Shown: positions 41,193 to 60,732 of the stretch, piece by piece
Layout of the letters: every line of letters starts with the position of its first letter
Numbering within the stretch: the first letter of the stretch is position 1
DNA from: Bacteroidia bacterium
GTDB taxonomy: Bacteria > Bacteroidota > Bacteroidia > J057
Direction of reading: 5' to 3'
Assembly (NCBI GenBank): GCA_033391075.1
Contig: JAWPMV010000001.1
Coordinates: 2,170,001 to 2,234,000 of the forward strand
DNA length: 64,000 nucleotides
Translations under genes and position numbers: made by a program
The notes under the pieces: model-generated
Databases searched by the model: none
What the model was told of the DNA's origin: nothing
Seen by the model: the letters and a program-made list of their open reading frames with translations, nothing else

Positions 41193-41203
41193 GTGCTAAT
41201 ATC

Positions 41204-43588
41204 ATGATTAGAAATTATTTCAAAATCGCCTGGAGAAACCTTGTTCGCCACAAGACTTATTCTCTTATCAATATCGGGGGATTATCCCTGGGAATGGCCG
41301 TATTCCTCTTGATCAGTCTGTGGGTGTGGGATGAACTTTCGTACAATACTTCTTTCGAAAATTATTCCTCCATTGCCCAGCTATATCAAAACCGGACCTT
41401 CAATGGAGAAACAGATACTTACCGCATTGTTCCTCAGCCGATCAGCAAAGAGTTATCAGAAAACTATCCTGACTTTGTAGGTGCTGTTCTTGCAGTAGAG
41501 AATGAAAATATCATAGCTCATGGGGATAAGATCATCAAGGGAGATGGAATGTCTGTCGAGTTTGGCTTCCCGGCAATGTTTAGCATGAATTTTTTGAAAG
41601 GTGATCAACAAAGCCTGAGAGAGATAAATTCTGTTTTGCTTTCACAAAGCTTTGCAGAGGCTTTATTTGGAGACATAGAGCCTATGGGTAAACTCCTGAG
41701 AATAGATAATGAAGCAGATTTACTGGTAAGTGGTATCTATGAGGATTTTCCTGCGAATAGTGAATTTGATGATATTTCTTTCCTCAATACCTTTGAGTTT
41801 TACCGGAGTATAGATGCACTTGCAAGGGAAAGTGAGCATAGTTGGGGGAGCAATGATTTTCTCTGTTTTGTTCAAAAAGAGGAGGGAGTTGAATGGGGAG
41901 AAGTACAAGCAAAATTTAAGGGTCTTTTATTTGATAAGGTAGACGAAAGTGAGCATAGCTCTAATCCTGAATTGATCATTCAGCCCATGGAAAACTGGCA
42001 TTTGCATGACAGTTTTAGCAATGGGAAGAATACAGGAGGAGCTATTGATTTGGTATGGTTATTTGCCTGGATTGGCATCATTGTCCTCCTGCTTGCTTCT
42101 ATCAATTTCATGAACCTCAGTACAGCTCGGAGTGAGACAAGGGCAAGAGAAGTTGGAGTCAGAAAGGCGATAGGATCTCTTAAAGCTCAATTGGTTTCTC
42201 AATTCCTGTCGGAGTCCTTTCTGACGGTGGCATTAGCGGCTTGTTTTGCGATGGGGATTGTACTACTTACTTTGCCCTGGTTCAATGATTTGACAGATAA
42301 AAGCCTGTCTATACCATTCGAAAACCCGATATTCTGGAGCCTTAGTCTTAGCTTTATTGTGGCTACCAGTATGCTGGCAGGTCTTTATCCGGCATTCTTC
42401 TTATCAGCCATAAGTCCGGTAAATGCACTCAAAGGAAATTACCGGCCCCGAAAAATCAGTGCCTTGCCCCGAAAAAGTCTGGTCCTCCTACAATTTACAG
42501 CTTCCATCATTTTGAGTATCGGAACCCTGATCGTCTATGATCATATCCAATACATCAAAGATCGACCTATAGGCTATGATTCGGATGGACTTCTGGCCAT
42601 TTATAAAAACACCCCTGATCTGCAGGCACTCGATTATGAAGTCTTGCGAAGCGATTTGATGGATACTGGTGCGGTGGATAATATGGCTGAGTCTTCTAAT
42701 TCGATCACCTCTGGAGGAGCTTTACAATCAGGCTTTAGTTGGGATGGAATGGATGCTGAAACCAATCTCTTGATCAATGTTACCGATATCACCCATGATT
42801 ATGGAGAAACTGTAGGCTTCGATTTTATCGAGGGCCGCAATTTCTCTCGGGAATTTGGCCTGGATCAGGAGGGCGTCATTCTGAATAAAACGGCTGCAGA
42901 TATGATAGGGAAAGATAAATTGTTAGGAGAAATCATACGAAGAGATTATGGAGCTACATTCAAGGTGCTGGGAGTAATTAAAGATATCATCAATGAGTCT
43001 CCCTTTGAAGCTCCTTTGCCCAGTATGTATTTCCTCAATTATGGCAACCGAAATGTGATAAATATTCGAATCAAATCAGAACTTCCGGCTTCACAGGCTC
43101 TGGCAAGTATAGCGGAAGTCATGAAGCAACACAATCCTGCGGCGCCTTTTGATTTCAGATTTGTTGACAAGGATTTTGCCCGGAAGTATGCCTACGAAGA
43201 GATGATTGGTCAATTGGCATTCATTTTTGCCATGCTGGCCATTGTGATATCTGTACTCGGGCTCTTTGGGCTTTCTTCCTTTATGGTCCTACAAAGAAGT
43301 CGGGAGATAGGCATACGCCGAATCCTGGGAGCTTCTGTATTCAACTTGTGGACCCTCTTAACCAAAGATTATTCTCTGCTGGTCTTATTGGCTTTGGCAA
43401 TTGCCAGCCCTTTAGCCTGGCAGATTATGGATGCCTGGATACAGAACTACAATTTCCATCAGGAAATCAGCATCTGGGTATTTGTGATGGCCGGAATTGG
43501 GGCAATCAGTCTTTCGCTCATCACCGTAAGCTATCAATCTATACGGGCGGCCATGCAGAAGCCGGTCAATAACCTGAAAACAGAATAA
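41204..43588 (+). CDS. FtsX/MacB-type ABC permease, copy 7 of 8
   Basis: 794 residues. Coupling motifs are RAREVGVRKAIGS near 312 and RSREIGIRRILGA near 699. It belongs with copy 2 (see there): similar length, same GGLSLGMAVFLLI-like first helix, same WHLHDSFSNGKNTGGAID segment before the first FtsX core. Its first ~40 bases are almost the same as those of copy 8. The C-terminus is PVNNLKTE. Confidence 0.93.
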   Translation: MIRNYFKIAWRNLVRHKTYSLINIGGLSLGMAVFLLISLWVWDELSYNTSFENYSSIAQLYQNRTFNGETDTYRIVPQPISKELSENYPDFVGAVLAVENENIIAHGDKIIKGDGMSVEFGFPAMFSMNFLKGDQQSLREINSVLLSQSFAEALFGDIEPMGKLLRIDNEADLLVSGIYEDFPANSEFDDISFLNTFEFYRSIDALARESEHSWGSNDFLCFVQKEEGVEWGEVQAKFKGLLFDKVDESEHSSNPELIIQPMENWHLHDSFSNGKNTGGAIDLVWLFAWIGIIVLLLASINFMNLSTARSETRAREVGVRKAIGSLKAQLVSQFLSESFLTVALAACFAMGIVLLTLPWFNDLTDKSLSIPFENPIFWSLSLSFIVATSMLAGLYPAFFLSAISPVNALKGNYRPRKISALPRKSLVLLQFTASIILSIGTLIVYDHIQYIKDRPIGYDSDGLLAIYKNTPDLQALDYEVLRSDLMDTGAVDNMAESSNSITSGGALQSGFSWDGMDAETNLLINVTDITHDYGETVGFDFIEGRNFSREFGLDQEGVILNKTAADMIGKDKLLGEIIRRDYGATFKVLGVIKDIINESPFEAPLPSMYFLNYGNRNVINIRIKSELPASQALASIAEVMKQHNPAAPFDFRFVDKDFARKYAYEEMIGQLAFIFAMLAIVISVLGLFGLSSFMVLQRSREIGIRRILGASVFNLWTLLTKDYSLLVLLALAIASPLAWQIMDAWIQNYNFHQEISIWVFVMAGIGAISLSLITVSYQSIRAAMQKPVNNLKTE

Positions 43589-43623
43589 GCCTTTTGATAA
43601 ATCATTGATTTTAAAAATAAATT

Positions 43624-46002
43624 ATGATTCAAAATTATTTCAAAATCGCCTGGAGAAACCTACTCCGTTACAAAGGTCATGCATTTATAAACATTGGAGG
43701 CTTATCCCTGGGATTTGCCTGTAGTATACTGATATATCTTTTTGTTCAGCATAATCTGCAGTACGATAACTTTCACCTCAATTCTGATCGGATATACCGG
43801 GTGGTTACAGAGGAACATAGAGACGATATAGACTTCGAAGCCAGTGTGCCTCCCGGATTTGCCCATGCATTTCGTACGGAGTATGATTATGCCGAAAAGG
43901 TAGCCAAACAGGCCCTTTGGGACAATGAATTGATCAGTTTCTCAGACAAGAAAAAGTTGAAGGAAGATGTGGCCTTCGTAGAAACGGAGTTTTTTGAAAT
44001 TCTCAACTTTCCCCTTACGCATGGAGGAGTTGCGGATCTTTCTGAACCCAACACGGCCGTGATTACGGAAAATATGGCCAAAAAATTCTATGGGGATTAT
44101 GACCCGGTAGGCAAGACCTTTCAACTAGGCGGGAAAACCCTTTTTCTAGTAGTGGGAGTGCTAAAAGATATTCCTAAAACGAGTCTCATAAATACGGAGA
44201 TATTTTTAGCCTATTCCAGCATAAAGGATTACTCCCAATTTCTGGCAAATGAAAACGGTTGGGGAGGAATCAGTTCCAATCTGGAGGTATTTACTTTGCT
44301 TCGCCCCAATCAATCCGTTCCAGCTATCGAAAAGGAGATTCAGAGCTTTGTAAAAAAATACCGACCCCGTTCCAAGAATGTCCACCACTACAAATTGCAG
44401 GCGCTGGCTGATATACACTTTGACCCCCGGTATTCAGGGGGAATCAGTCCCAATATGCTATGGATATTTGGTTTGATCGGATTCTTCCTGCTGCTGATGG
44501 CGAGCATCAACTTCATCAATATCTCTACAGCCCAATCGGTAAACCGCTCCCGTGAAGTAGGAATACGTAAGGTGCTAGGAGGACTTCGGGTCCATTTGTT
44601 CTGGCAGTTTATGATCGAAACCTTCCTGATTTGCATGGCTTCTCTTTTAATCGGGATAAGTCTCAGCGTATTGGCCTTGCCTTATTTCAATGAACTCTTT
44701 GAGCTGGAGTTGAGTATCTCGGCCATTGGGAATCTTCAGTTTTTCGGATTTGCTTTCGCTTTACTAGTAGGAATCTCGCTTTTAGCAGGGACTTACCCCG
44801 GATTTCTCTTGGCTAGAATAGCTCCTGTACTTGCCTTGAAATCCAAATTGAACCCCAAAGATGCCGGTGGATTCAGTACGCGCAAAGTGCTGGTGTCTGT
44901 TCAGTTCATCATTTCGATTATCCTGATCATTGGTACCCTGGTTATCAATAAGCAGATGAAGTATGCCATCAATTCGGATCTGGGTTTCGAAAGAAACGGG
45001 ATCTTACGGGTAGCCTTGCCGGACACAGTGAATGAAATTCGCTTAAAAAGCTTAAAAGATCGCCTGGAAAACTACACCCCAATCGAGCAAGTAAGTGCAT
45101 GTTTTGGCTCTCCGGGAGCTTCAGATAATAGATGGGGAACCAGCCTTGTTTACAATAATAATCCTGAGACCGAGGAATTTCAGATCCAGGTGAAAATCGG
45201 AGATGTGGATTACCTCGATATTTTCGGATTGAAATTGGTGGCGGGAAGAAACTTCTTCACCAGAGACAGTATAGACGAGTTTGTGGTAAACGAAAAACTG
45301 GCAGAGAAACTAGGGCTAAATTCAGTCGAGGAGCTTCTGGGGAAAAGCCTGGAAGTCTCAGGAGGATTTATCAAAGGGAATATTGTAGGGGTTGTCGAGA
45401 ACTTTCATGACCAGGATTTTCATGAAGATATCAGTCCGGTCTTTATCACTTCCAGGCATGATAGCTATTCCGAATTGGCCATTAAAATGAATCTGAAAAA
45501 TACCCAGGCGGCGATCGAACACATTGAGAATGAATGGTCCGAGGCATTCCCAGATCATTTATTCGAATATGAGTTTCTAAGCGAACGGGTAGAAAATCTC
45601 TACGAAAGCGAACAGCAGATTCTTTCCCTAAGTACGGTTTTTTCCAGCCTTGCCATCTTGATTGGATGCCTGGGGATTTATGGCATGATCCTTTTTTATG
45701 TAGGCCAAAGGACCAAAGAAATTGGCATTCGCAAAGTGCTGGGAAGCAGCACCTTCAATATCCTGGTATTGCTGACTGAAGACTTTTTCAAACTGCTTGC
45801 CTGGGCTGCCCTGATTGCCAGCCCCATTGCCTGGTACTTCATGCATCTTTGGCTCCAGAATTACAATTTTCAAACAGATCTTAGCTGGTGGGTCTTTGCC
45901 TTGGCCATCGGCATGATCATGACCATTACGATTCTTACCATTTCTTTCCAGGCAATTAAAGCAGCAAGAGCTAAGCCTGTGCAAAGTTTACGTACCGAAT
46001 AA
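43624..46002 (+). CDS. FtsX/MacB-type ABC permease, copy 8 of 8
   Basis: 792 residues, 35 bases after copy 7 and nine before the second ATPase gene. Coupling motifs are RSREVGIRKVLGG near 309 and RTKEIGIRKVLGS near 696. The first helix is GGLSLGFACSILIYLFVQ. The closing helices contain SSLAILIGCLGIYGMILFYVGQ, where other copies have a CLGLFGL form. The C-terminus is PVQSLRTE. Placement next to the second ATPase hints at pairing with it, but nothing in the sequence proves this. Confidence 0.93.
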   Translation: MIQNYFKIAWRNLLRYKGHAFINIGGLSLGFACSILIYLFVQHNLQYDNFHLNSDRIYRVVTEEHRDDIDFEASVPPGFAHAFRTEYDYAEKVAKQALWDNELISFSDKKKLKEDVAFVETEFFEILNFPLTHGGVADLSEPNTAVITENMAKKFYGDYDPVGKTFQLGGKTLFLVVGVLKDIPKTSLINTEIFLAYSSIKDYSQFLANENGWGGISSNLEVFTLLRPNQSVPAIEKEIQSFVKKYRPRSKNVHHYKLQALADIHFDPRYSGGISPNMLWIFGLIGFFLLLMASINFINISTAQSVNRSREVGIRKVLGGLRVHLFWQFMIETFLICMASLLIGISLSVLALPYFNELFELELSISAIGNLQFFGFAFALLVGISLLAGTYPGFLLARIAPVLALKSKLNPKDAGGFSTRKVLVSVQFIISIILIIGTLVINKQMKYAINSDLGFERNGILRVALPDTVNEIRLKSLKDRLENYTPIEQVSACFGSPGASDNRWGTSLVYNNNPETEEFQIQVKIGDVDYLDIFGLKLVAGRNFFTRDSIDEFVVNEKLAEKLGLNSVEELLGKSLEVSGGFIKGNIVGVVENFHDQDFHEDISPVFITSRHDSYSELAIKMNLKNTQAAIEHIENEWSEAFPDHLFEYEFLSERVENLYESEQQILSLSTVFSSLAILIGCLGIYGMILFYVGQRTKEIGIRKVLGSSTFNILVLLTEDFFKLLAWAALIASPIAWYFMHLWLQNYNFQTDLSWWVFALAIGMIMTITILTISFQAIKAARAKPVQSLRTE

Positions 46003-46011
46003 ACAAACACT

Positions 46012-46680
46012 ATGTTGTTAGAAATAAGAAATGTCTCAAAATGGGTGAAATCAGGAGGAATGCGAACCTTTCTTCTTGAGGACATAAACCTAAATGTAGA
46101 AGAAGGAGAATTTATCTCCATCATGGGACCCTCCGGTTCAGGTAAAACTACCCTCCTGAATGTGATCGGGATGCTGGATGAGTTTGATTATGGAGAGTAT
46201 AGTTTCCTCAATCAACCCGTCCATAAACTGAAATCCAAAGCTCGTGCGAGGCTTTATAAGGAATACATTGGCTTTGTCTTTCAGGCCTATCATTTGATCG
46301 ATGAGTTGACGGTGTATGAAAATATAGAGGCGCCATTATTATATAAGAAATTGAGCTCTTCCGAGCGAAAAGCAAAAGTAGCCGAAACCCTCGATCGATT
46401 CAATATCGTTGCTAAGTCCAAGCTCTTTCCAGAGCAACTTAGTGGAGGCCAACAGCAATTGGTCGGGATCGCTCGTGCCCTCATTTCGTCTCCAAGGCTG
46501 ATTCTTGCAGACGAACCCACCGGTAACCTAAATTCGACTCAGGGAGACGAAATCATGGAACTATTCAAAAAACTCAATGAAGATGGAGTAACCATCATTC
46601 AGGTAACCCATTCTGAGAAGAATGCTGAATATGGCTCCCGAATTGTGAGTCTTTTGGACGGAAAAAACCTTAGCAATTGA
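46012..46680 (+). CDS. ABC transporter ATP-binding protein, MacB/LolD type (second of two)
   Basis: 222 residues. Walker [11 protein letters not shown]-loop FVFQAYHLI, Walker [11 protein letters not shown] and switch VTHSEKN are present. Two positions differ from the first ATPase at 25685: the signature tail reads [14 protein letters not shown] (Leu where Arg is usual) and the D-loop reads NLNS (Asn where Asp is usual). Glu of Walker B and the switch His are intact, so it should bind and probably hydrolyse ATP. It may form a homodimer or an uneven heterodimer with the first ATPase. It lies between permease copy 8 and the TolC gene. Confidence 0.94.
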
Positions 46681-46697
46681 TCTTTCAATAGAAACTT

Positions 46698-48122
46698 ATG
46701 TATAGCAAATTTTTAAGCATACTCGCTATTTGTCTGATTCTTTCGGTGAAAGGATATTCGCAAACGAATACCAGGGAAAGCTATGACCTGACTTCATGTG
46801 TTGCGATAGCTTTAGAGAACAATCTCGATCTGAAAAGATCCGGGATTCAGGCTGAATCAGCAAATCTGGCCTTGCGTCAGTCAAAAAATAACCTCCTGCC
46901 CAATCTCAACGCAAATTACAATTTAGGGATAAACAATGGTAGGAGTATCAACCCTTCAACCAATGACTTTATCAATGAGCGACTCACATTTTCTAATGTC
47001 GGATTGGGAGGAGAAGCAACCCTCTTTAATGCCTTTCGCCTGAAAAACAGCATCAAACAGAACCAGTACAATTTGGGAGCTGCAGAGATGGAAATGGAGG
47101 AGGTTAGGCAAAACCTGATTCTGAATGTGACCTTGAGTTATATCCAAATTCTAACTGCGAGAGATCAATTGAGATTGGCTGAAGCTCGTTTGGAGACTAC
47201 AGCTGGTCAAGTGGACAGATTGCGTGCTAATTTTAAGGAAGGAGAAGGGAATCCTGCTGATTTTACCGATATGCAGGGACAATTTAGCATGGATGAAATG
47301 GCCGTGCTTTCCGCTAAAAATAACCTGAATGAGGCCATACTCAATCTTTTTGTCTCTATGGGAATAGAGGCTTCTCCGGAAGCCGATTTCGCAGATATAA
47401 GCGGAAATTTAGAGGAAGAAAAATATCTCCTGTCTGCCAATGCGGTCTACCAGGATGCCCTGACGAATTTGCCGGCTTTTAAAGCTCGTCAATTGAGAAT
47501 TGAAGAAGCAAATAGTGCCATTAAAGTGGCTCGGGCAGATTTCTTTCCGGAGGTCTCTCTCTTTGGACAAATTGGGAGTAACTTTTCCAGCGTAAGTAGG
47601 GCTTTTTTTGATGCGGGAACAGAGGTAAAAGAAACCGGGGATTTTGTAAATGTAAACAACCAATCGATTCCTGTTTTTACCAATGAGACCAATTTTCGTC
47701 AGGAAAAAATCGCCTACCTCGATCAACTCAATAATAATCGAAACTCAGTTGTGGGAGTCGCGCTAAGTATTCCACTTTTTAATAGATTTCAAGCTAAAAA
47801 CCGCATCTCTCAACGCAAACTGGAATTGAGGCAATCGACCATTGATCTTCAGAATAGTAAGCTGCAGTTTAAGCAAGCAGTTGAGGATGCGCATTTTAAA
47901 ATGGAAAATGCTTTCTCTCGCTATCAAATCCTGAAACGACAATTGGAGGCCTATGAAAGTTCTTTCCGTATCAATGAGATACGTTTTAACAATGGAGTAT
48001 CCAATATCGTCCAGTACCTGACTAGTAAAAATAACCTCGATACTGCCCGTCTGAATCTCTCCAATGCAAAATTTGAATACATACTGCGAGTGAGAATCCT
48101 GGAATACTATCGCGGCCTTTAA
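46698..48122 (+). CDS. TolC-family outer-membrane efflux protein
   Basis: 474 residues with a signal peptide (FLSILAICLILSVKGYSQ). Two repeats of the TolC fold are visible as long heptad helices: the first around LTSCVAIALENNLDLKRSGIQAESANLALRQSKNNLLPNLNANYNLG (about 30-80) and the second around AVYQDALTNLPAFKARQLRIEEANSAIKVARADFFPEVSLFGQIG (about 245-300). It forms a trimeric outer-membrane channel-tunnel. It is the last gene of the run starting at 24368 and supplies the outer part of the tripartite system. No clear terminator was seen before the peptidase gene at 48209. Confidence 0.93.
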   Translation: MYSKFLSILAICLILSVKGYSQTNTRESYDLTSCVAIALENNLDLKRSGIQAESANLALRQSKNNLLPNLNANYNLGINNGRSINPSTNDFINERLTFSNVGLGGEATLFNAFRLKNSIKQNQYNLGAAEMEMEEVRQNLILNVTLSYIQILTARDQLRLAEARLETTAGQVDRLRANFKEGEGNPADFTDMQGQFSMDEMAVLSAKNNLNEAILNLFVSMGIEASPEADFADISGNLEEEKYLLSANAVYQDALTNLPAFKARQLRIEEANSAIKVARADFFPEVSLFGQIGSNFSSVSRAFFDAGTEVKETGDFVNVNNQSIPVFTNETNFRQEKIAYLDQLNNNRNSVVGVALSIPLFNRFQAKNRISQRKLELRQSTIDLQNSKLQFKQAVEDAHFKMENAFSRYQILKRQLEAYESSFRINEIRFNNGVSNIVQYLTSKNNLDTARLNLSNAKFEYILRVRILEYYRGL

Positions 48123-50594: not shown

Positions 50595-52073
50595 ATGAAC
50601 CGTCTATACGCGCTTTTATGTGTGCTATTATTCTCGATCTCAGCCCTGTTCGGACAAGAACGAATGTTGGAGGCCGAATCTACGGTTGTTACCAAGCACA
50701 AAACTGTAATCAAAGGAACAGCAATCAATTACACGGCTACGACAGGTACCCAGCCCGTCTGGAATGATGAAGGAAAAGCTGTGGCTTCTTTGTTCTTTAC
50801 CTATTATACCCGTGATGGTATTTCTGACCGCTCAAAAAGACCCCTCGTAATATCTTTCAATGGAGGACCGGGATCGGCTTCTGTTTGGATGCATATTGCC
50901 TATACAGGGCCTATGATTCTCAAGATTGATGATGAGGGATATCCTGTTCAGCCATATGGGGTAAAGCAAAATCCCCATTCGATTCTGGATGTAGCAGATA
51001 TCGTATATGTCAATCCTGTCAATACCGGTTATTCACGGATTCTGGATAAGGAAACCAAAAAGACGACCTTTTTTGGAGTAAATGCGGATATCAAATATCT
51101 GGCGGATTGGATCAATACCTTTGTTACCAGAAATGAGCGCTGGACTTCTCCCAAGTATTTGATTGGCGAAAGTTATGGTACCACCAGAGTATCAGGTCTG
51201 GCCCTTGAACTTCAAAACAGACAATGGATGTACCTGAATGGAGTTATCCTGGTTTCTCCTACTCGTCTGGGGATCGAAAGAGATGGGCCTGTAATCGCAG
51301 CCAATCGTCTGCCTTATTTTGCAGCTACTGCCTGGTACCACAATATGCTACCAGCTGATTTGCAGTCAAAAGACCTGAATGAAGTGTTGAATGAGGCCGA
51401 AGGCTATGCCATTGACAAGCTCATACCTGCAATAGCAAAAGGAGGTTTTGTAGGAGATGAAGACAGAAACTATGTAGCTAAGCAGTTTGCCCGATACTCA
51501 GGCCTTTCAGAGAAAGTCATTCTCCAACATAATCTGGACGTACCTACCAGCTTTTTCTGGAAAGAACTGCTGAGAGATAAAGGATTTACAGTTGGTCGTC
51601 TGGATTCACGTTATAAAGGCATCGACAGAAAAGGGGCAGGGGACAGGCCGGATTACAATTCTGAGCTGACCAGTTGGTTGCATTCCTTTACCCCAGCTAT
51701 CAACTATTACCTTAGAGAAAAACTCAATTACAAGACCGACATCAAATACAATATGTTCGGACCGGTAAGACCCTGGGACAGAGGCGGGGATCAAACAGGT
51801 GAAAACTTGCGTCAGGCTATGGCTCAGAACCCTTACTTAAAAGTGATGATTCAATCGGGTTATTATGATGGAGCGACTTCTTATTTTGATGCAAAATATA
51901 CCATGTGGCAATTGGACCCAAGTGGCAGGATGAAAGAACGCCTTAGATTTGAGGGATATAGAAGTGGGCATATGATGTATCTGAGAGCAGAGGATTTGGC
52001 TTCTTCTAATGATCACATCCGTGATTTTATTTTGAAGAGCCTACCGGGAGAAGGAGTACCAGCGAAGTACTAA
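50595..52073 (+). CDS. Secreted serine peptidase, family S10 (serine carboxypeptidase-like)
   Basis: 492 residues with a signal peptide (YALLCVLLFSISALFGQ). The S10 markers are FNGGPGSASVWMHIAYTGP, the nucleophile in IGESYGTTR, the late Asp in QSGYYDGATSYF and the His in YRSGHMMY. The oxyanion and substrate-clamping segments are both intact. Members cut single residues from the C-terminus of peptides, often at acidic pH. The mature protein should be periplasmic or exported, and joins the M24 peptidase two genes upstream in processing peptides outside the cytoplasm. A hairpin follows the stop. Confidence 0.93.
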   Translation: MNRLYALLCVLLFSISALFGQERMLEAESTVVTKHKTVIKGTAINYTATTGTQPVWNDEGKAVASLFFTYYTRDGISDRSKRPLVISFNGGPGSASVWMHIAYTGPMILKIDDEGYPVQPYGVKQNPHSILDVADIVYVNPVNTGYSRILDKETKKTTFFGVNADIKYLADWINTFVTRNERWTSPKYLIGESYGTTRVSGLALELQNRQWMYLNGVILVSPTRLGIERDGPVIAANRLPYFAATAWYHNMLPADLQSKDLNEVLNEAEGYAIDKLIPAIAKGGFVGDEDRNYVAKQFARYSGLSEKVILQHNLDVPTSFFWKELLRDKGFTVGRLDSRYKGIDRKGAGDRPDYNSELTSWLHSFTPAINYYLREKLNYKTDIKYNMFGPVRPWDRGGDQTGENLRQAMAQNPYLKVMIQSGYYDGATSYFDAKYTMWQLDPSGRMKERLRFEGYRSGHMMYLRAEDLASSNDHIRDFILKSLPGEGVPAKY

Positions 52074-52097
52074 GTAAAAACAAAATAGAAATGCTAA

Positions 52098-52128
52098 CGG
52101 CATATTTCCCCAGATGGGAGATATGCCG
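52098..52128 (+). terminator. Probable terminator of the S10 peptidase gene
   Basis: CGGCATAT (52098..52105) pairs with ATATGCCG (52121..52128), with an inner CCC/GGG pair, and ATTTCTTTT follows. It lies 25 bases after the stop at 52073. Confidence 0.65.
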
Positions 52129-52179
52129 ATTTCTTTTATCAAAGACTTTGCGCTTTTGGTCAAATCACAAACTCTTATA

Positions 52180-52211
52180 CTTTCCCCACAAAGTTCCAGC
52201 CTTTCCCCACA
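52180..52211 (+). promoter_or_regulatory. Candidate LytTR operator: 11-bp direct repeat with 21-bp period
   Basis: CTTTCCCCACA occurs at 52180..52190 and again, without a mismatch, at 52201..52211. The distance of 21 bases is two helical turns, as known for LytTR-type regulators, which bind two direct repeats on one face of DNA. The site is 58 bases before the start of the operon that encodes a LytS-type kinase and a LytTR regulator. No clear -7 box was found between it and the gene. Confidence 0.55.
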
Positions 52212-52268
52212 TCTAGTTGTTGGAGTGATGCATATCTCATTATTTGAGGAATAATCAATTAAATAACT

Positions 52269-53042
52269 ATGCAACACAAAACTTTAATTTGCTGCCTGTT
52301 AATCATTTTGCCTGGCCTCTTGATAGGACAGGAGCTCAAAGAGATTAAATCAGAATCGGAAATGCTTGCTAATCCTGATAAGTATCCGGTCAGCATTTAC
52401 CTCAAACTAGGCCTTCCTTTTGGAGCTATGGCTTTGAATACAGGAAATTCTAATATTCGTCAACAGCTTGAGGCTGCAGCAATAGAGCTTTCAAGAACTC
52501 GGGCTTATAGCTTGTTTGAAATCGGTTTACGGTATAAGCGCATCTATGTTGATCTGGGGGTAGATATTCCGGTCTATGAGTTGACTTTTTTTGATCGGCC
52601 AGTAAGAAGTTTTACCGTTGATTCCTATCAGACGGCTGGCTGGGGAAATGTGGGCGTATCAATCTTACAAAACAGAAATACTGCACTTTTGCTCAGACTG
52701 GGGATCGGTGAATTTGAAGCTGCTCATGAAATTACTTCATTTGGAAATACAGATCAGCTGGACTTTGATCAATTATTCCCGGATGCATCTTCACCTAAGA
52801 CGACCCTAATATTTAACCGGAACACCTTTATAGATATAGGCCTGGAAATGTGGAGAGGGATAGCGAAAAGCTCCACGAGTTCGGGAGAAACCCTTCGAAT
52901 AGGATACAGACGTGGTCTGAAAGCCAGTAGATGGGAAGCTTCAGGAAGGAGATCTATCAATGCTCCCCTGGATCGAATGGGTGAAATTTATTTTCAATTT
53001 GGGTTTAGTATTGGATACAACTTTCCCCAAAAATATCAATAA
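52269..53042 (+). CDS. Probable outer-membrane beta-barrel protein
   Basis: 257 residues with a signal peptide (TLICCLLIILPGLLIGQ). The mature part is a series of amphipathic strands (YSLFEIGLRYKRIYVDLGVDIPVY, TALLLRLGIGEFEAAH, NTFIDIGLEMWRGIAKSS, GEIYFQFGFSIGYNF), consistent with an 8- to 10-strand barrel. No known family is recognised. It is the first gene of a four-gene operon: the next starts three bases after its stop, and a kinase/regulator pair follows. A sensor or target role in the same signalling unit is possible but not shown. Confidence 0.7.
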   Translation: MQHKTLICCLLIILPGLLIGQELKEIKSESEMLANPDKYPVSIYLKLGLPFGAMALNTGNSNIRQQLEAAAIELSRTRAYSLFEIGLRYKRIYVDLGVDIPVYELTFFDRPVRSFTVDSYQTAGWGNVGVSILQNRNTALLLRLGIGEFEAAHEITSFGNTDQLDFDQLFPDASSPKTTLIFNRNTFIDIGLEMWRGIAKSSTSSGETLRIGYRRGLKASRWEASGRRSINAPLDRMGEIYFQFGFSIGYNFPQKYQ

Positions 53043-53045
53043 GTC

Positions 53046-53498
53046 ATGAAGCGGATTACAGGAATAAATCGGCCCATGCTTTATCGCCTTCTGATAAGTT
53101 TTCTTTCTCTACTTTTGATCGGAGCCCAATCGAATTTAACACAGGAAGCTTATGCTACCTTAAGGATCTACAAAAAAGCCTATACGAGTTCGGGTTTTGG
53201 GATAAAAATCAATGATCAACTGGTGGTCAGAAACCTGAAAAATCGAAGCTGGTTTGAAGTAGAGGTACCCGTAGGAAAATTGGCTATAGAAACTATTTCA
53301 GAAGTTCGTTATCCAACCGTTAAGCGAAAATCATTTTCTTTGGAGGTTGAAGCAGGAAAACTATATTACCTGGAAGCCATCGTCGATTATGAATTTTGGG
53401 TAAGCAGTATGTATTTGGTATTACGAGAGGCAGAGCGTGCAGAAAAAGATATGAAAAGATGCAAGCAAAGAGAATATGAACTCAAAAAAGTGGAATAA
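53046..53498 (+). CDS. Small secreted protein, DUF2846-like
   Basis: 150 residues. The hydrophobic N-terminus (about 10-32, MLYRLLISFLSLLLIGAQS) is a signal peptide or membrane anchor. The core has the pattern ATLRIYKKAYTSSGFGIKINDQLVVRNLKNRSWFEVEVPVGKLAIET, then FSLEVEAGKLYYLEAIVD, as in DUF2846-like proteins: a strand with x-Y-R, an N-D-x-x-V turn, and a G-x-Y-Y-L near the end. The C-terminal tail is charged and helical. Function is unknown. It overlaps the kinase gene by 23 bases. Confidence 0.6.
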   Translation: MKRITGINRPMLYRLLISFLSLLLIGAQSNLTQEAYATLRIYKKAYTSSGFGIKINDQLVVRNLKNRSWFEVEVPVGKLAIETISEVRYPTVKRKSFSLEVEAGKLYYLEAIVDYEFWVSSMYLVLREAERAEKDMKRCKQREYELKKVE

Positions 53499-54513
53499 TT
53501 GGACTCCCTGGCTTTTTGCCACCCTGACGCTTTGTCTGGGTGGCTTTTGGGGATTTCAACTCCATGAAAGCCTTACCCTGCAATATGCAGGTGAGTGGGA
53601 TCAATTAGGGGGATTTGTGCGTTGGCTTTTGGGCTATGTGGTCATCCTGCTGGGATTGATGTTATTGGCTTGGCTAAACTTTAGAGGTCCCTATCAGTGG
53701 TGGGGACTAAACGAAGAAAACAAATGGATCTATCGAAGTTGGGCTTTGCTTTTGTACTTTTTTCTCTACCTCTTTTTGCAGTGGACTACGGGAATGGAAG
53801 TTGATCTGGTAGAGGAAAATCTTTTGGTCGCTTTGTTGGCATTTATATTTGTCATGGGTTTCACCTTTGTCGCAGGTTTGGTAAGAAGTCGAAATCAGCA
53901 GGCGAAACTTTTGCAGGAACAAACAGCCGCGGAATTGCAAGCACTACGTTCTCAACTCAATCCTCATTTCCTCTTCAATGCCTTGAATACCCTATACAGT
54001 CGTGCAGTTCCTCTGGAAGATGAAAGCCTGGCTGAAGGCATTGAGGAACTCTCCGGAATATTACGATTTACCCTACAGCAATCCCAAAAAGATTATGTCA
54101 GTATAGAAGAGGAGCTGACTTTCTTGAAAAGATATATTGGCCTGCAACAAGCTCGCATGGCCAATCCCGAAAACATACATATTGATATTCGATGGGATCA
54201 AAGTGAAGCCCAAATTCCCCCGCTACTCTTGCTTCCATTCGTCGAGAACCTCTTTAAATATGGCATTTCCCCTCAGAGTGAAATACCCGCAAAGCTCAGT
54301 TTATCCATAGAAGAAGGATTTCTGGATTTCTTAAGTCAAAACCCTATTTATCCTGTTCAACAAAGAGGAACAGGTAAGGGCATCGAGCAAGTGAAAAGAC
54401 GTCTTGCCCTACAATATCCCGATCAACACCAACTATCTATCCAACAATCAGACGAGCAATTTGAGCTGCGACTTCAATTAACTTTAGCTCCTAAAGCCGT
54501 CCCTGCCAGCTAA
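53476..54513 (+). CDS. LytS-type sensor histidine kinase
   Basis: 345 residues. Four membrane helices fill the first ~150 residues (WLFATLTLCLGGFWGF, FVRWLLGYVVILLGLMLLAWL, WALLLYFFLYLFLQW, LLVALLAFIFVMGFTFVAGL) with only short loops. The phospho-accepting His is in RSQLNPHFLFNALNTLYS, the mark of the LytS/YehU class, and the N box is PPLLLLPFVENLFKYG. The ATP lid is short and ends GTGKGIEQVKRRLALQYP, in place of the usual DNG. The gene overlaps the one before by 23 bases and is six bases before its LytTR partner. Confidence 0.93.
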   Translation: MNSKKWNNWTPWLFATLTLCLGGFWGFQLHESLTLQYAGEWDQLGGFVRWLLGYVVILLGLMLLAWLNFRGPYQWWGLNEENKWIYRSWALLLYFFLYLFLQWTTGMEVDLVEENLLVALLAFIFVMGFTFVAGLVRSRNQQAKLLQEQTAAELQALRSQLNPHFLFNALNTLYSRAVPLEDESLAEGIEELSGILRFTLQQSQKDYVSIEEELTFLKRYIGLQQARMANPENIHIDIRWDQSEAQIPPLLLLPFVENLFKYGISPQSEIPAKLSLSIEEGFLDFLSQNPIYPVQQRGTGKGIEQVKRRLALQYPDQHQLSIQQSDEQFELRLQLTLAPKAVPAS

Positions 54514-54519
54514 TATACC

Positions 54520-55203
54520 ATGATACTACAAGCTATAGCCATAGACGACGAACCTTCAGCCCTCAAAGTGTTGGAAGCACATGCAGAGAAAATTCCTTTT
54601 CTCAATCTTAAGCAAAGTTTTCTGAATCCAACTGAGGGCCTGGCATATCTCCAAAGTCATAGAGTTGATGTGGTTTTTTTGGACGTACAAATGCCGGATT
54701 TGATGGGAACTGAATTGGCAAAACTTCTTCGGGATATAGATGTGCAGCTCATATTTGTGACTGCTTATGCGGATTATGCGGTTCAGGGATTTCAGTTACG
54801 TGCGCTGGACTATTTACTCAAGCCTGTTTCTTTGCCCCGTTTTCTGGAAGCCTGCAATCGGGCTTTGCAAGGGCAGCAAAAACGTCTGAATCAATCTCCC
54901 AGCCTATTTATCAAAGATGGCTATGATTGGGTGAAGGTTGACCTGGATGCTCTCTTATACATTCGTTCTGATACCAATCTCCTGTTCTTTCATCAAACAG
55001 AGAAAACGGTCAGTACGCGAATGACGATTTCAAAAGCCCTGGATATGCTGCCGAAAGGAGCCTTCGTGAGGGTGCATAAATCCTATATCGTAGCCATTCA
55101 TGCGATTCGGAAAATCGAACGTCATCAATTGACCGTTGGGCAGGATCAAATCCCTTTGGCTAGCAGTTATAAGGAGGAAGTTCAGCGATTGTTGTTGGGA
55201 TAA
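54520..55203 (+). CDS. LytTR-family response regulator
   Basis: 227 residues. The receiver domain (about 3-115) has DDE at 9-11, phospho-acceptor D55 (VVFLDVQMPD), T in FVTAYADYA, and K in LLKPVS. The LytTR DNA-binding domain (about 130-225) has FIKDGYDWVKVDLDALLYIRSDTNLLFF, TISKALDMLP and FVRVHKSYIVAIHAIRKIERHQL. It acts with the kinase encoded just upstream. The perfect 21-bp-period repeat at 52180..52211 is a likely own binding site and would give feedback control of the operon. Confidence 0.95.
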   Translation: MILQAIAIDDEPSALKVLEAHAEKIPFLNLKQSFLNPTEGLAYLQSHRVDVVFLDVQMPDLMGTELAKLLRDIDVQLIFVTAYADYAVQGFQLRALDYLLKPVSLPRFLEACNRALQGQQKRLNQSPSLFIKDGYDWVKVDLDALLYIRSDTNLLFFHQTEKTVSTRMTISKALDMLPKGAFVRVHKSYIVAIHAIRKIERHQLTVGQDQIPLASSYKEEVQRLLLG

Positions 55204-56454: not shown

Positions 56455-56985
56455 ATGTACATGTCTGATTTCCCGAAAGAAATATTCTACCAAAACTATG
56501 GACCTCTCTGTAACTATGCAGCAGCTATAGTTAAGGATTCCGCTGTGGCAGAAGATATTGTGCAAAACCTCTTCATCCAGCTATGGCAAAAATCCAGTTT
56601 TCAGAAAGTGAAACAGATAGAAGGTTTTTTATTAAGGGCTACTAAATTCAAGTGCATAGACTATCTGAGAAGCAATCAGAAAACCCGCTTGATTTCTCTG
56701 GAATCATATATGGCCGAAGCTTCTGTTGGACCAAGCCCCTTTGAAATACAAGAAAAAGACATTGAACCCTTGTTCCACTATTTTGCTGCCAAGCTCCCGC
56801 CTAAAACTCAGGAGGTGTTTTTAAAGAGCAGAAACGGAATGAGTTATCGGGAGATTGCTGAAGATCTGGATATTTCGATTAAAACTGTCGAAAATCAAAT
56901 GGGTAGAGCCCTCAAACATATGCGTAGCATGCTAAAGGAACAGAATCTGCTCACTTTGCTTCTATTTCTTCAATCAGTCTTTTAA
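56455..56985 (+). CDS. RNA polymerase ECF sigma factor (FecI-like)
   Basis: 176 residues; the ATG at 56461 (MSDFPKEIFYQNYG) is an equally good start. Region 2 is at about 12-80 (YAAAIVKDSAVAEDIVQNLFIQLWQK, then LLRATKFKCIDYLRSNQKTR), region 4 at about 115-165 with GMSYREIAEDLDISIKTVENQMGRALKHMR. This is the Bacteroidota sigma type that pairs with FecR anti-sigma factors. It is controlled by the FecR gene after it and through that by the STN domain of the receptor at 58063. The gap to the FecR gene is 87 bases. Confidence 0.93.
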   Translation: MYMSDFPKEIFYQNYGPLCNYAAAIVKDSAVAEDIVQNLFIQLWQKSSFQKVKQIEGFLLRATKFKCIDYLRSNQKTRLISLESYMAEASVGPSPFEIQEKDIEPLFHYFAAKLPPKTQEVFLKSRNGMSYREIAEDLDISIKTVENQMGRALKHMRSMLKEQNLLTLLLFLQSVF

Positions 56986-57072
56986 GGGAAGAGTGGGAAA
57001 CTGATTTTTTCTTTGTGAATAGGGGTATTGCTTAGACTTACCGACTTATAAATAGACAGCTTTATTATTTAG

Positions 57073-58023
57073 ATGGAAAACGACATATACGACATACTCC
57101 TCAAGCATTTTAAACAAGAGACAACTGCAGAAGAGGAAAAACAGCTAGATAAATTCCGGCAGGAAAACTCCTTTGAATATGAACAGATGAGAAAGCTCTG
57201 GTTTTCAGATTCTGAAATTAAGTTGTATGATTTTGATACCGATGCAGCATGGGAAAATGTTAAGAAAAAGGCACTATCTCAGCAAGGGAAACGGCAGCTG
57301 TTATTTAGCCGAAAATGGTTTGCCGCTGCTGCAGTAATTCTCTTGTTATTTCTGGGATATTGGGTCCTCAAAGATAGCATTCAGAGCCCTCAATCCAGGA
57401 TGATCAGCCATAAAGCAGAAGAAGGGGAAGGGGTTGATTTAATTGTGTTAGAGGATAGCACTAAAATTTGGTTGAATGAAGGAGCTGTTTTACGTTACCC
57501 TCAAAAATTTAATGAACATGAGCGTAGGATAAGCTTGTCAGGAGAAGCCTTTTTTGAAGTAGAAAAGGACCTTAATCGTCCCTTTATTATACAAACTGCT
57601 CTATCCGAAACTCGGGTATTGGGCACTTCATTTAACATTAAAAGCAGGGATGAATTTTGTCTGGTAAGTGTAACTGAAGGTAGGGTAGAAGTTAGTAATT
57701 CCTCAGATCAGAAAGCGATTCTGATTGCGGGAGAAGTTGCTCGGCTACAAGGAAAAGAACTTGATACTTATGCGAATGCAAATCCTAATTACCTCTCCTG
57801 GAAAACAGGTGTTTTTCATTTTGAGGAAAGCACTTTAAGGCAAATGGTAGAAGATCTTAACAGCTTTTACAGAAATCAAATACTGTGGGAGGGAAGCACA
57901 GAGTATAATTGCAATATCACTGCAGATTTCGAAAATCAAAGCCTTGAAGATATTATAAGCATGATTGAGCTTAGCTGTGAATTAGATATAAAAATGGAAG
58001 ATGGGACTTACCTCATTCCTTAA
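57073..58023 (+). CDS. FecR-family anti-sigma factor
   Basis: 316 residues. The cytoplasmic N-terminus (about 1-75, LLKHFKQETTAEEEKQLDKF) holds the sigma factor. One membrane helix (KWFAAAAVILLLFLGYWVL, about 80-98) leads to the periplasmic FecR domain (about 120-215: VVLEDSTKIWLNEGAVLRYPQKF-like, FEVEKDLNRPFIIQT, VLGTSFNIK, VTEGRVEV). The end is a DUF4974-type domain (FEESTLRQMVEDLNSFY...DIISMIELSCEL). It senses the loaded receptor in the periplasm and frees the sigma factor. Confidence 0.95.
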   Translation: MENDIYDILLKHFKQETTAEEEKQLDKFRQENSFEYEQMRKLWFSDSEIKLYDFDTDAAWENVKKKALSQQGKRQLLFSRKWFAAAAVILLLFLGYWVLKDSIQSPQSRMISHKAEEGEGVDLIVLEDSTKIWLNEGAVLRYPQKFNEHERRISLSGEAFFEVEKDLNRPFIIQTALSETRVLGTSFNIKSRDEFCLVSVTEGRVEVSNSSDQKAILIAGEVARLQGKELDTYANANPNYLSWKTGVFHFEESTLRQMVEDLNSFYRNQILWEGSTEYNCNITADFENQSLEDIISMIELSCELDIKMEDGTYLIP

Positions 58024-58062
58024 TAAATCAATAAAGCCTGAGAATAAAGCTATTGTCCCAAG

Positions 58063-60732
58063 ATGATCAGATCTATTTGTCTAATGCTATTTATAAGTCT
58101 TTCTGCCTATGGTTATTCCCAGGACCGATTGAGTGAGACTCCTATTAGCATTAGTCTGGACAATAAAAGCCTGAAAGAGGTATTTAAGCTCATAGAGAAG
58201 CAGACAGATATTGGATTTGTATACAGTAATAATCCGGAACTAGAAAAGAAAGTTAGTGGAGAATTTCACAATATGAGTCTAGCTTCTTTTCTGGAAAAAT
58301 GTTTTGAAGGGACAGATTTAAGCTTTAAAGAAATTGGGGGAAAGATCACCATATATAGAAAGGGAAGAAGTAGCAGGAATTCCAATTCTTCAGGCAAGAA
58401 GCACAACAATAAATTCACCCTTTCAGGTTATGTTTATGATAAATCTACAGGCGAGGCTCTGATAGGGTGCTCGATCTACGATAAAGAAGGTAAAATTGGG
58501 ACGATTACAAATGAATATGGTTTTTATTCCCTTAGTCTCGCTCAAGGAAGTATTCAACTCGCAGTTTCCTATTTTGGGTATGAACAAACAGAAGTCCCGC
58601 TGACCCTGAATGATGATCAGCAGGTGAATTTTGAGTTGGCCCAGACTGATTTTGACCTGGATGAAATATTAGTTGAAGCTCAGCAAGCTACTTCCAGGCG
58701 TAAAGGAATATCAGCTACTCAACTTAGCCCACAACTTATTGCTCGTTTGCCTTCATTTTTGGGAGAACCCGATTTACAGAAAAATTTACTCACTTTGCCA
58801 GGCGTAAGCTCCATTGCAGCAGGAAGTAGTGGATTCAATGTTCGGGGAGGGCGTGTGGATCAAAATCTGGTCTTGGTAGATGAAGCTCCTTTGTACAACA
58901 GCTCCCATCTTTTGGGCCTACTTTCGGTAGTTGATAATAATGCAGTCAAAGAGGTCAATTTTTTCCGTTCCGGCATTCCTGCCAAATATGGAGGTCGGGT
59001 TTCTTCAATTTTAGATATTCGCCTAAAGGAGGGTAATAGCCGTTCCTTTAATGGCTCCGCATCCATTAATCCATTTTTTGCAAAACTCAACCTGGATATT
59101 CCTCTTGTAGAAGATCGTTTAAATCTGGTTGTTTCTGCCAGACAGTCTTATGCTGCTTTGATCAATCTATTTGTAAGGCAGGAAGAAACGAAGTTGACCC
59201 CAGGATTTAGCGATGGCTCCTTGAAATTAAATTATCGAGTAGGGAAGAAGGATAAATTATTTTTCTCTTTCTATGCGGGCAATGATTTTATTAAGTCCGA
59301 AGAAACTAACAAGCAAGGCAGCAGACCTATCCGAAAAGCTATGTGGGGGAATCTGCTTGCAAACCTCCGATGGAATCATCTATTCTCTAATAAGGTCTTT
59401 GCCAACCTCAGTTTGATCTATAGTGATTTCAATTTCGAGATGAAGGGTATAAATGGGAACTTTTCCAGATCGATCTATCCCGTAATCACCACTGCACAGG
59501 TAAGGGGACAGGAAATAAAATACGACCTTTCCTTTTATCCTCGGGCTTCTTTTTCAGTTTATGCAGGAATAGGAGCCCAAAATAATCTGTATACGCGTTT
59601 ATCAGAAGTGGAAGAAGCAGGATTTATCTCTCCTGAACCCAACGATAATGCCCTGGAATATTATGCGTATGTTGATACAGAGAGCAGACTCGCAAAAGGG
59701 CTAAGTCTGCGCGCCGGTCTCCGTTTTTCAGGCATATGGAACTATGGCCCGAATTTCATCAATCGATATGAAACGGGATTACCGCCCTCTGTCAATACGA
59801 TCATTGGAACTGAGCTCATTGCTGCCGGAAAAACTCTGGCCCACTTTCAAAACCCTGAACCCAGGCTTTCCCTTGGCTATCAATTATCGGAAAACTTCAA
59901 CCTAAGTCTGGCTTATGACTACCTGGTGCAATACAGACATTTGCTCTCAAATACGATAGGAGTTGCGCCTTATGACGTTTGGGTGCCTGCCAGCAATTAT
60001 TTGCCTCCAACTAAAGCACATCAGTATAGCTTGGGTGTTCGTACAAACTGGAAAGGATTCCAGCTTGGGACAGAGATTTACTTCAAGCAAATGAAAAACC
60101 TTCTGGAATTCCGCAGAAATGCCCGCTTGCTTTTTGTAGGTAAAGAGGAGACGGAATTGCTTCCCGCTGAATTAAATGCCTATGGTATGGAGTTGAGTTT
60201 GGAGAAAAAGCAGGGAAACTTTCAGGCTTATGCAAATTATACCTGGTCTCGGTCCTGGGTGCGAACTTTATCAGAATGGGAAAATATCCAGATAAATAAA
60301 GGAAGGCATTATCCTTCAAATTACGATCGCCCTCACAATGCCAGTCTTGTGCTTTCTTATGCTATTAGCTCCAGACTAAGTAGCTCCGCAAACTTCATAT
60401 GGCAATCTGGAAGGCCCCTGACCATTCCGGAAGGACGGATTGGAAGCCTGATTCTTTACGGGGATAGAAATGCAGGGAGATTACCGCCAAACCATCGCCT
60501 GGATGTATCTCTGTCTATTAGCCCTAAACCTCAGGCAAATCAAAAAGTAAAAAGTACTTGGGTAATCTCCGTTTTGAATGTTTATGCCCGTAGAAACATC
60601 CTTACCTATTTCATTGATCAGGAATTGAAGCCAGCTGATCAGATTTCAGAAACCTTTTTCAATTATAAATTGAAACAAATGTCTTTGGTGCCCGGCATCA
60701 TTCCTTCCTTTTCCTACAAACTTCATTTTTAA
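58063..60732 (+). CDS. TonB-dependent outer-membrane receptor with STN signalling domain
   Basis: 889 residues with a signal peptide. In order: an STN domain (about 25-100, ISISLDNKSLKEVFKLIEKQTDIGFVY), which links receptor to FecR; a carboxypeptidase-regulatory-like Ig fold (about 122-195, LSGYVYDKSTGEALIGCSIY); a plug (about 215-330, with GFNVRGGRVDQNLVLVDEAPLYNSSH and SGIPAKYGGRVSSILDIR); and a 22-strand barrel. The plug carries the usual NVRGG and YGGR marks. It takes up a scarce ligand using TonB energy. The substrate is unknown; pairing with a DUF4249 lipoprotein, not SusD, is against a glycan. Confidence 0.95.
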   Translation: MIRSICLMLFISLSAYGYSQDRLSETPISISLDNKSLKEVFKLIEKQTDIGFVYSNNPELEKKVSGEFHNMSLASFLEKCFEGTDLSFKEIGGKITIYRKGRSSRNSNSSGKKHNNKFTLSGYVYDKSTGEALIGCSIYDKEGKIGTITNEYGFYSLSLAQGSIQLAVSYFGYEQTEVPLTLNDDQQVNFELAQTDFDLDEILVEAQQATSRRKGISATQLSPQLIARLPSFLGEPDLQKNLLTLPGVSSIAAGSSGFNVRGGRVDQNLVLVDEAPLYNSSHLLGLLSVVDNNAVKEVNFFRSGIPAKYGGRVSSILDIRLKEGNSRSFNGSASINPFFAKLNLDIPLVEDRLNLVVSARQSYAALINLFVRQEETKLTPGFSDGSLKLNYRVGKKDKLFFSFYAGNDFIKSEETNKQGSRPIRKAMWGNLLANLRWNHLFSNKVFANLSLIYSDFNFEMKGINGNFSRSIYPVITTAQVRGQEIKYDLSFYPRASFSVYAGIGAQNNLYTRLSEVEEAGFISPEPNDNALEYYAYVDTESRLAKGLSLRAGLRFSGIWNYGPNFINRYETGLPPSVNTIIGTELIAAGKTLAHFQNPEPRLSLGYQLSENFNLSLAYDYLVQYRHLLSNTIGVAPYDVWVPASNYLPPTKAHQYSLGVRTNWKGFQLGTEIYFKQMKNLLEFRRNARLLFVGKEETELLPAELNAYGMELSLEKKQGNFQAYANYTWSRSWVRTLSEWENIQINKGRHYPSNYDRPHNASLVLSYAISSRLSSSANFIWQSGRPLTIPEGRIGSLILYGDRNAGRLPPNHRLDVSLSISPKPQANQKVKSTWVISVLNVYARRNILTYFIDQELKPADQISETFFNYKLKQMSLVPGIIPSFSYKLHF

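Follow-up and report, generated by a model that had tools for sequence, protein, structure and literature searches.

We propose that an array of direct repeats with a period of 21 base pairs (bp), located upstream of a LytS-LytTR operon of a Bacteroidia bacterium (GenBank assembly GCA_033391075.1, contig JAWPMV010000001.1), belongs to the operator of the LytTR response regulator that the operon's final gene encodes. The stretch of DNA analysed, called the window throughout, comprises 64,000 nucleotides (nt), and all coordinates given below are positions within it. As judged from comparison of sequences, it is likely that this assignment is correct. The array keeps its period in the promoter of an orthologous operon, and period-21 self-repeats occur in excess upstream of other LytS-LytTR operons from this bacterial group. 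That LytTR regulators bind direct repeats and may regulate their own genes was known already; what is new here is the focal site itself and a start on a collection of regulator/half-site pairs.

The repeat array and its conservation

The original prediction had described a perfect 11-bp direct repeat with a period of exactly 21, and both copies were confirmed: the 11-mer CTTTCCCCACA is found at 52180-52190 and again at 52201-52211, with the identity extending over exactly 11 bp and with different bases on the flanks. When the 195-bp intergenic region was simulated 20,000 times with a Markov model, a perfect period-21 repeat spanning 11 bp or more was obtained with a P of 0.00015, or 0.0006 when periods 20-23 were taken together. 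Over the 64-kb window, such repeats averaged 0.01 in 200 Markov versions and two were observed. Since the other one (GCCCCGAAAAA, 42445-42476) sits within the reading frame of a permease gene, the window-wide count by itself is no proof. That second repeat was dropped as a candidate site because of its location inside the gene, and is probably due to chance or to coding.

Close orthologs of the regulator were found in two of 39 other genomes (G004, 88% identical; G006, 81%), with the next matches by E-value being 43-45% identical, and the residues D9, D10, D55, T81 and K101 are invariant across the three orthologs. A broader search of contigs yielded five loci, two of them (88% and 81%) taken to be those of G004 and G006 and three more distant (≤40%), while a search of viral contigs yielded one locus at 31%. 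The kinase orthologs are 75% and 59% identical. G006 retains all four genes of the operon, the gene 2 ortholog being 45% identical, and gene 1 was detected in two of 13 family genomes, namely the focal genome and G006 (36% identical, and also first in its operon). The comparison of promoters rests on G006, the one relative in which this region is readable.

Aligned without gaps over the array, the focal and G006 promoters agree at 10/11 positions of the first 11-mer, 7/10 of the spacer and 6/11 of the second 11-mer, after which TCT is kept. The functional unit is probably something other than the literal 11-mer. What the two genomes share is a 53-nt block that aligns ungapped from the first to the last of three half-sites, H1 to H3, with a CACA core present at period 21 in all six half-sites. 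The elements are as follows.

52164-52174, + strand: half-site H1, ATCACAAACTC, 21 bp before H2 and identical to it at 7/11 positions; absent from the original prediction
52180-52190, + strand: 11-mer CTTTCCCCACA, copy 1; 10/11 positions kept in the ortholog promoter
52185-52195, + strand: half-site H2, CCCACAAAGTT; G006 counterpart ACCACAAAGTT, 10/11
52201-52211, + strand: 11-mer CTTTCCCCACA, copy 2; 6/11 positions kept in the ortholog promoter
52206-52216, + strand: half-site H3, CCCACATCTAG; G006 counterpart GACACATCTTT, with CACATCT kept

The block is identical at 35/53 positions between the focal genome and G006, a value reached by none of 2000 Markov versions (maximum 30), and 24/52 positions match in the 52 nt downstream of it. 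In G006, H1 (ACCACATAATT) is identical to its own H2 at 9/11 positions and forms the best period-21 pair there (P 7e-5 per position). The focal H1 and H2 give a P of 0.007, and H2 and H3, in the CACA frame, agree at 6/11 positions in both genomes (P 0.04 for G006). Since the alignment and the half-sites were picked after seeing the data, all these values are descriptive. Inspection of the orthologous promoter, which the original prediction had put forward as a check, gave a divided though on balance favourable answer in G006, where the literal repeat has decayed and the period-21 CACA half-sites persist.

A dyad with 5-bp arms, ACTTT-CCCCAC-AAAGT (52179-52194), overlaps H2, and of this the ortholog keeps only CTTT/AAAG. 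Part of CTTTCCCCACA also resembles the DnaA box, TTATCCACA, at 7/9 positions; this resemblance was set aside.

Period 21 upstream of other LytS-LytTR operons

Since the period of 21 had been fixed beforehand by the original prediction, a clean test on other operons was possible. For each distance from 14 to 40, the best 11-column self-match was scored in a region of 180 nt ending at the operon start. The first ATG of each open frame served as the start, and some of these regions may therefore be misplaced. Set 1 consisted of 22 other LytS-LytTR operons of the focal genome, with starts picked by hand. Of the 34 operons in set 2, one belongs to the focal genome and the other 33 to further genera of the family; six of 40 regions had been excluded (four in which the regular expression did not find the kinase motif and two whose operon start lay past the end of the fetched sequence). 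Set 3 drew on other families of the class, with a single operon from each of 25 genomes, two of 27 loci having been dropped as truncated. The resulting 81 operons are partly non-independent, some being orthologs of each other. Among four preliminary operons (mean 8.25 at 21), L013, L014 and L015 lie outside the final sets and L012 is the same as L150, which is included.

In each set the mean self-match was highest at 21: 7.64 in set 1 (5.95-6.86 at other distances, z 5.5), 7.44 in set 2 (6.03-6.68, z 5.8) and 7.56 in set 3 (6.36-7.00, z 5.5). When the period was drawn at random 200,000 times, the observed value was reached on no occasion, either for sets 1 and 2 together (56 operons) or for set 2 alone. 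There was no period-21 signal in 42 control upstream regions of the focal genome (6.45 at 21, z -0.6). Counted as pairs of identical 4-mers, the 81 operons contained 2.35 pairs per region at 21 vs 0.65 elsewhere (z 10.7), and 124 control regions contained 0.89 at 21, with a mean of 0.65 and a next-highest value of 0.85 elsewhere (z 1.9). An identical 7-mer pair at 21 was present in 15/81 operons vs 2/124 controls (Fisher P 2.3e-5), and an identical 6-mer pair in 22/81, compared with a mean of 4.6 at other periods. A clear period-21 repeat is seen in about a fifth to a quarter of the operons. Where exact period-21 repeats of at least 6 nt occur, 16/25 end 37-66 nt before the start codon, a range that was chosen afterwards.

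Satellites of 7 bp mimic a period-21 signal, and were noticed upstream of genes at L087:2589, L089:2596, L091:2606 and L118:1860 (for example (GGGTTTA)n at L118), in three cases preceding the gene after the kinase gene. An earlier set of 139 control regions was discarded because such satellites caused a false series of distances in multiples of 7 and because kinase and regulator genes had been included in it. The final controls are 127 regions minus three that bear satellites, and an equal filter would drop L075 from the LytTR set. The period-21 match of L087 may be due to its satellite (10/11 at distance 14). Without L075, L087 and L091 there remain 2.19 pairs per region at 21 vs 0.62, and a 7-mer pair in 14/78 operons. 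The same precaution led us to withdraw triple arrays as a general feature. Strict three-copy matches (at least 5/9 columns) were found in 8/81 operons at period 21 vs 0-4 at other periods, and 73 4-mer pairs were counted at distance 42, falling to 60 without the satellite-like L087 and L091, a count that does not exceed those of all neighbouring distances. Since the excess at 42 rests on these two, triple arrays beyond the focal operon remain a suggestion.

The repeated words differ from operon to operon, for instance AGCTGTGACCA/AGCTGTGATTA, CTTCATTGAGC/TTTCATTGAGC, CTTTGAACGAC/CTGTGAACGAC and CATCACATTTT twice. Among the words enriched at 21 are TTGA/TCAA, CACA/TGTG and CGTT/AACG, with the focal operon and its ortholog counted and adding to CACA. 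The half-sites of L075 and L105, whose regulators are 53% identical, agree (TTTCATTGAGC and TTTCATTGAAA), and L106, a third relative (46-49%), carries TTGATTGAAAA/CTGATTGAGAA. Each regulator may have a private site. We tentatively propose, as a reading that could well fail, a code of private addresses that would insulate paralogous LytS-LytTR pairs, each regulator having its own half-site in two or perhaps three copies at an exact 21-bp period before its own operon.

The regulons of LytTR proteins are hard to predict, owing to an unusual beta-fold mode of DNA binding and to published sites without a common consensus. A rule that needs nothing beyond the genome, namely a period-21 self-repeat before the regulator's own operon, offers a candidate site for about one in five regulators, as judged from the 81 operons. 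The rule could supply enough regulator/site pairs to make it testable which residues read which bases; if the private-address code were true, setting each LytTR domain against the repeat of its own operon would give a recognition code by the same means.

The clearest sister site within the focal genome is that of L075, where the 21-bp unit recurs almost in full (TTCATTGAGC and GAAAGCTT, each at period 21) and a third, weaker copy is present. The focal genome (9.49 Mb) holds 44 LytS-like kinase matches and at least 68 LytTR-regulator-like matches (73 of 131 candidates scored), possibly with receiver-only ones among the latter.

Proposed action of the array and alternatives

The original prediction had placed the repeat upstream of a LytS/LytTR operon ending in a LytTR regulator gene, and the Pfam domains agree with this. 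The operon (52269-55203) consists of four tightly spaced genes: genes 1 and 2 are separated by 3 nt, genes 2 and 3 overlap by 23 nt, and 6 nt lie between genes 3 and 4. The LytTR regulator is encoded within the operon that it would control. The features are listed below.

52098-52128, + strand: intrinsic terminator of the upstream S10-peptidase gene (50595-52073), with a 13-pair stem, a 5-nt loop and a T-rich tail
52217-52246, + strand: weak candidate promoter of Bacteroidota type, noted by eye; TTG at 52217-52219, 19 nt, then ATTATTTG at 52239-52246
52269-53042, + strand: gene 1, 257 amino acids; its N-terminus looks signal-like by eye, and no Pfam family matches at E 0.001
53046-53498, + strand: gene 2, 150 amino acids, DUF2846-like (E 5.4e-5; 23.6 bits, below the curated cut-off of 34.3)
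53476-54513, + strand: gene 3, LytS-type histidine kinase, 345 amino acids (His_kinase PF06580, E 1.2e-23)
54520-55203, + strand: gene 4, LytTR response regulator, 227 amino acids, the proposed binder (Response_reg PF00072 and LytTR PF04397, the latter with E 1.9e-15)

Folding of 52074-52140, which contains the terminator, gave -23.6 kcal/mol (z -5.0). Since there is a terminator upstream and the operon is tight, the promoter is expected in 52129-52268, where the repeats sit. The second 11-mer ends 57 nt, and the array (H3) 52 nt, upstream of the first start codon. With low confidence we designate 52217-52246 as the promoter; its counterpart in the ortholog is TTG, 20 nt and TTCATTTG. A search for -33/-7 promoters of Bacteroidota type found no fixed distance.

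In the mechanism that we favour, the LytS kinase would phosphorylate the LytTR regulator, molecules of which would occupy successive half-sites spaced by two helical turns along the same side of the DNA. The phosphorylated regulator would then most likely activate the promoter of its own operon. Activation is favoured by the position of the array, which ends 52 nt ahead of the start codon and beside a possible -33 element. The result would be positive feedback on the kinase-regulator pair, with the two proteins encoded first being switched on as well. Since the candidate promoter matches the -7 box poorly, both activation and repression are possible.

Several observations weigh against this proposal. 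The candidate -7 box ATTATTTG agrees with TAnnTTTG, given as the sigma-A -7 box of flavobacteria in the accessible text of PMC9723704, at only 4/6 positions, making for a weak predicted promoter. In its literal form the 11-mer pair is not maintained in G006, and the contig of G004 stops 38 nt before the kinase gene, so that the end of gene 2 is readable and the promoter lies beyond the contig; gene 1 was not found in G004. Under the strict three-copy score the focal array reaches 4/9 columns and the G006 array six. About three quarters of the 81 operons are without a clear repeat, and distance 21 is narrowly the highest in the 124 controls too. Among L072, L090, L092 and L093, whose kinases are 61-65% identical, the repeat is clear only in L092 (10/11), the others reaching 7-8/11; the first copy in L093 keeps CTTTGAACG (19/32 across the pair), and L072 and L090 have similar words only on the opposite strand.

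If the operon's own regulator binds the array, it could instead act as a repressor or homeostatic brake, with an array that overlaps or abuts the promoter and so blocks the polymerase. No downstream promoter candidate scores well, and to the eye the TA-NN-CTTT sequence at 52176-52183, by the first 11-mer, looks similar to a -7 box, so a promoter could overlap the array. We regard repression as unlikely, since the exact repeats that end 37-66 nt before the start codon are in a possible position for an upstream activator site, and since activation is the outcome in the published cases of LytTR autoregulation through repeats located just upstream of -35, as far as the accessible part of PMC6193735 describes them.

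It is improbable that the array is the site of an unrelated transcription factor with the LytTR gene an incidental neighbour. Period-21 repeats could suit another regulator, and the dyad at 52179-52194 overlaps H2; against this, 7-mer pairs track LytS-LytTR operons, and the repeat varies in sequence from one operon to the next, which is what recognition of a separate site by each regulator would produce. It is very improbable that the repeat arose by chance or through neutral duplication of a local segment of about 21 bp. The perfect repeat is found in the focal genome only, and the degenerate second copy in G006 would fit a recent duplication or conversion, but the low P in the intergenic region argues otherwise, as does conservation of the block in register with G006, including H1, which lies outside the 11-mers. 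Phased A-tracts or curved DNA near promoters, with no protein site, can be virtually dismissed: 21 bp does equal two helical turns and control promoters have a slight excess at 21, but the operon sets have no self-match peaks at 10, 11, 31 or 32 bp, and words containing G/C are enriched (190 4-mer pairs at 21 vs 37-81 at other distances from 14 to 30).

The proposal of autoregulation made in the original prediction is supported by the operon, the spacing, the CACA half-sites kept in G006 and the other operons, and not by the literal 11-mer pair as a conserved unit.

Known LytTR sites and the search for further targets

AgrA, VirR, ComE and BtsR are LytTR regulators with direct-repeat sites. 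According to the accessible portion of PMC4847170, LytTR operators share no consensus and consist of a pair of repeats, direct or inverse, each 9-11 nt long and set 11-13 nt apart. Period 21, and with it the two-turn spacing of direct repeats that the original prediction had named for LytTR sites, fits these published operators. Read as 9-nt half-sites beginning with ACA, the array has 12 nt between repeats, the literal 11-mers having a gap of 10 nt. The focal site resembles that of YpdB at yhjX in Escherichia coli in its direct repeats, which are 9-11 nt long and spaced by roughly two helical turns, and in their position before a promoter, at the focal site a candidate one, and the YpdB system likewise has a kinase-regulator pair of LytS/LytTR type (PMC4847170, same portion). 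Unlike such sites, the focal one has a CACA core and perhaps three half-sites, has the operon of its own regulator as the putative target, lies in a Bacteroidota genome and is a predicted site.

LytTR Regulatory Systems (LRS) show positive autoregulation via repeats just upstream of -35 (PMC6193735, in part). In HdrRM and BrsRM of Streptococcus mutans and in LRS-like operons of Bacteroides, the accessible text of that paper gives mostly 9-bp repeats with 11-13 bp between, and, as here, the repeat sequences are poorly conserved between sites and the spacing is retained. Two Bacteroides operons described there have a period of 22 (11 + 11), vs 21 at the focal site. The focal operon was rejected as an LRS since, by the same source, these have an inhibitory membrane protein and no histidine kinase, whereas the focal operon encodes a LytS kinase (PF06580) and a regulator with a receiver domain. 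The H3 of G006 in the form ACATCTTTT resembles SMU_433 ACATCTTAT by eye, and H1 and H2 bear no clear resemblance to it. A literature search with partial coverage, limited to titles and the openings of abstracts, found no survey of autoregulatory repeats of LytS-LytTR operons in the phylum, which is weak evidence; the nearest is the survey of LRS operons, including two Bacteroides cases, in what is accessible of PMC6193735.

The original prediction had also expected the repeat to serve as a motif for finding further targets, and none was found with the literal pair. When the CTTTCCCCACA pair was searched across the genome with up to three mismatches, the site itself was the sole match (backwards control, 0). 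A 22-mer derived from the ortholog had 13 matches with up to three mismatches in the 13 family genomes, 11 of them besides the site and its ortholog; these 11, mostly in long frames, looked like chance. A looser pattern of paired half-sites matched the genome 26 times vs 11 for its backwards control. Both overlapping pairs of the array rank within the top four of these 26 matches, a circular result since the pattern was drawn from the array and its ortholog. Of 18 loose-pattern matches examined (L155-L172), 15 lie within coding frames and three outside; the last six of the 26 had no locus.

A scan of 51900-52500 against Rfam gave a sole match, to archaeal RNase P, which was rejected at 13.2 bits as far under the cut-off of 84. 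A structure model of gene 1 was discarded (mean pLDDT, the predicted local distance difference test score, 44.8). Elsewhere in the window, 38775-48122 contains a run of three MacB/FtsX-like permease genes, an ATP-binding cassette (ABC) ATPase gene and a TolC-like gene, all named by eye. Downstream of the operon, 56455-60732 encodes a sigma factor of the extracytoplasmic function (ECF) type with Sigma70 regions 2 and 4, followed by genes that by eye are of FecR and TonB/SusC type.
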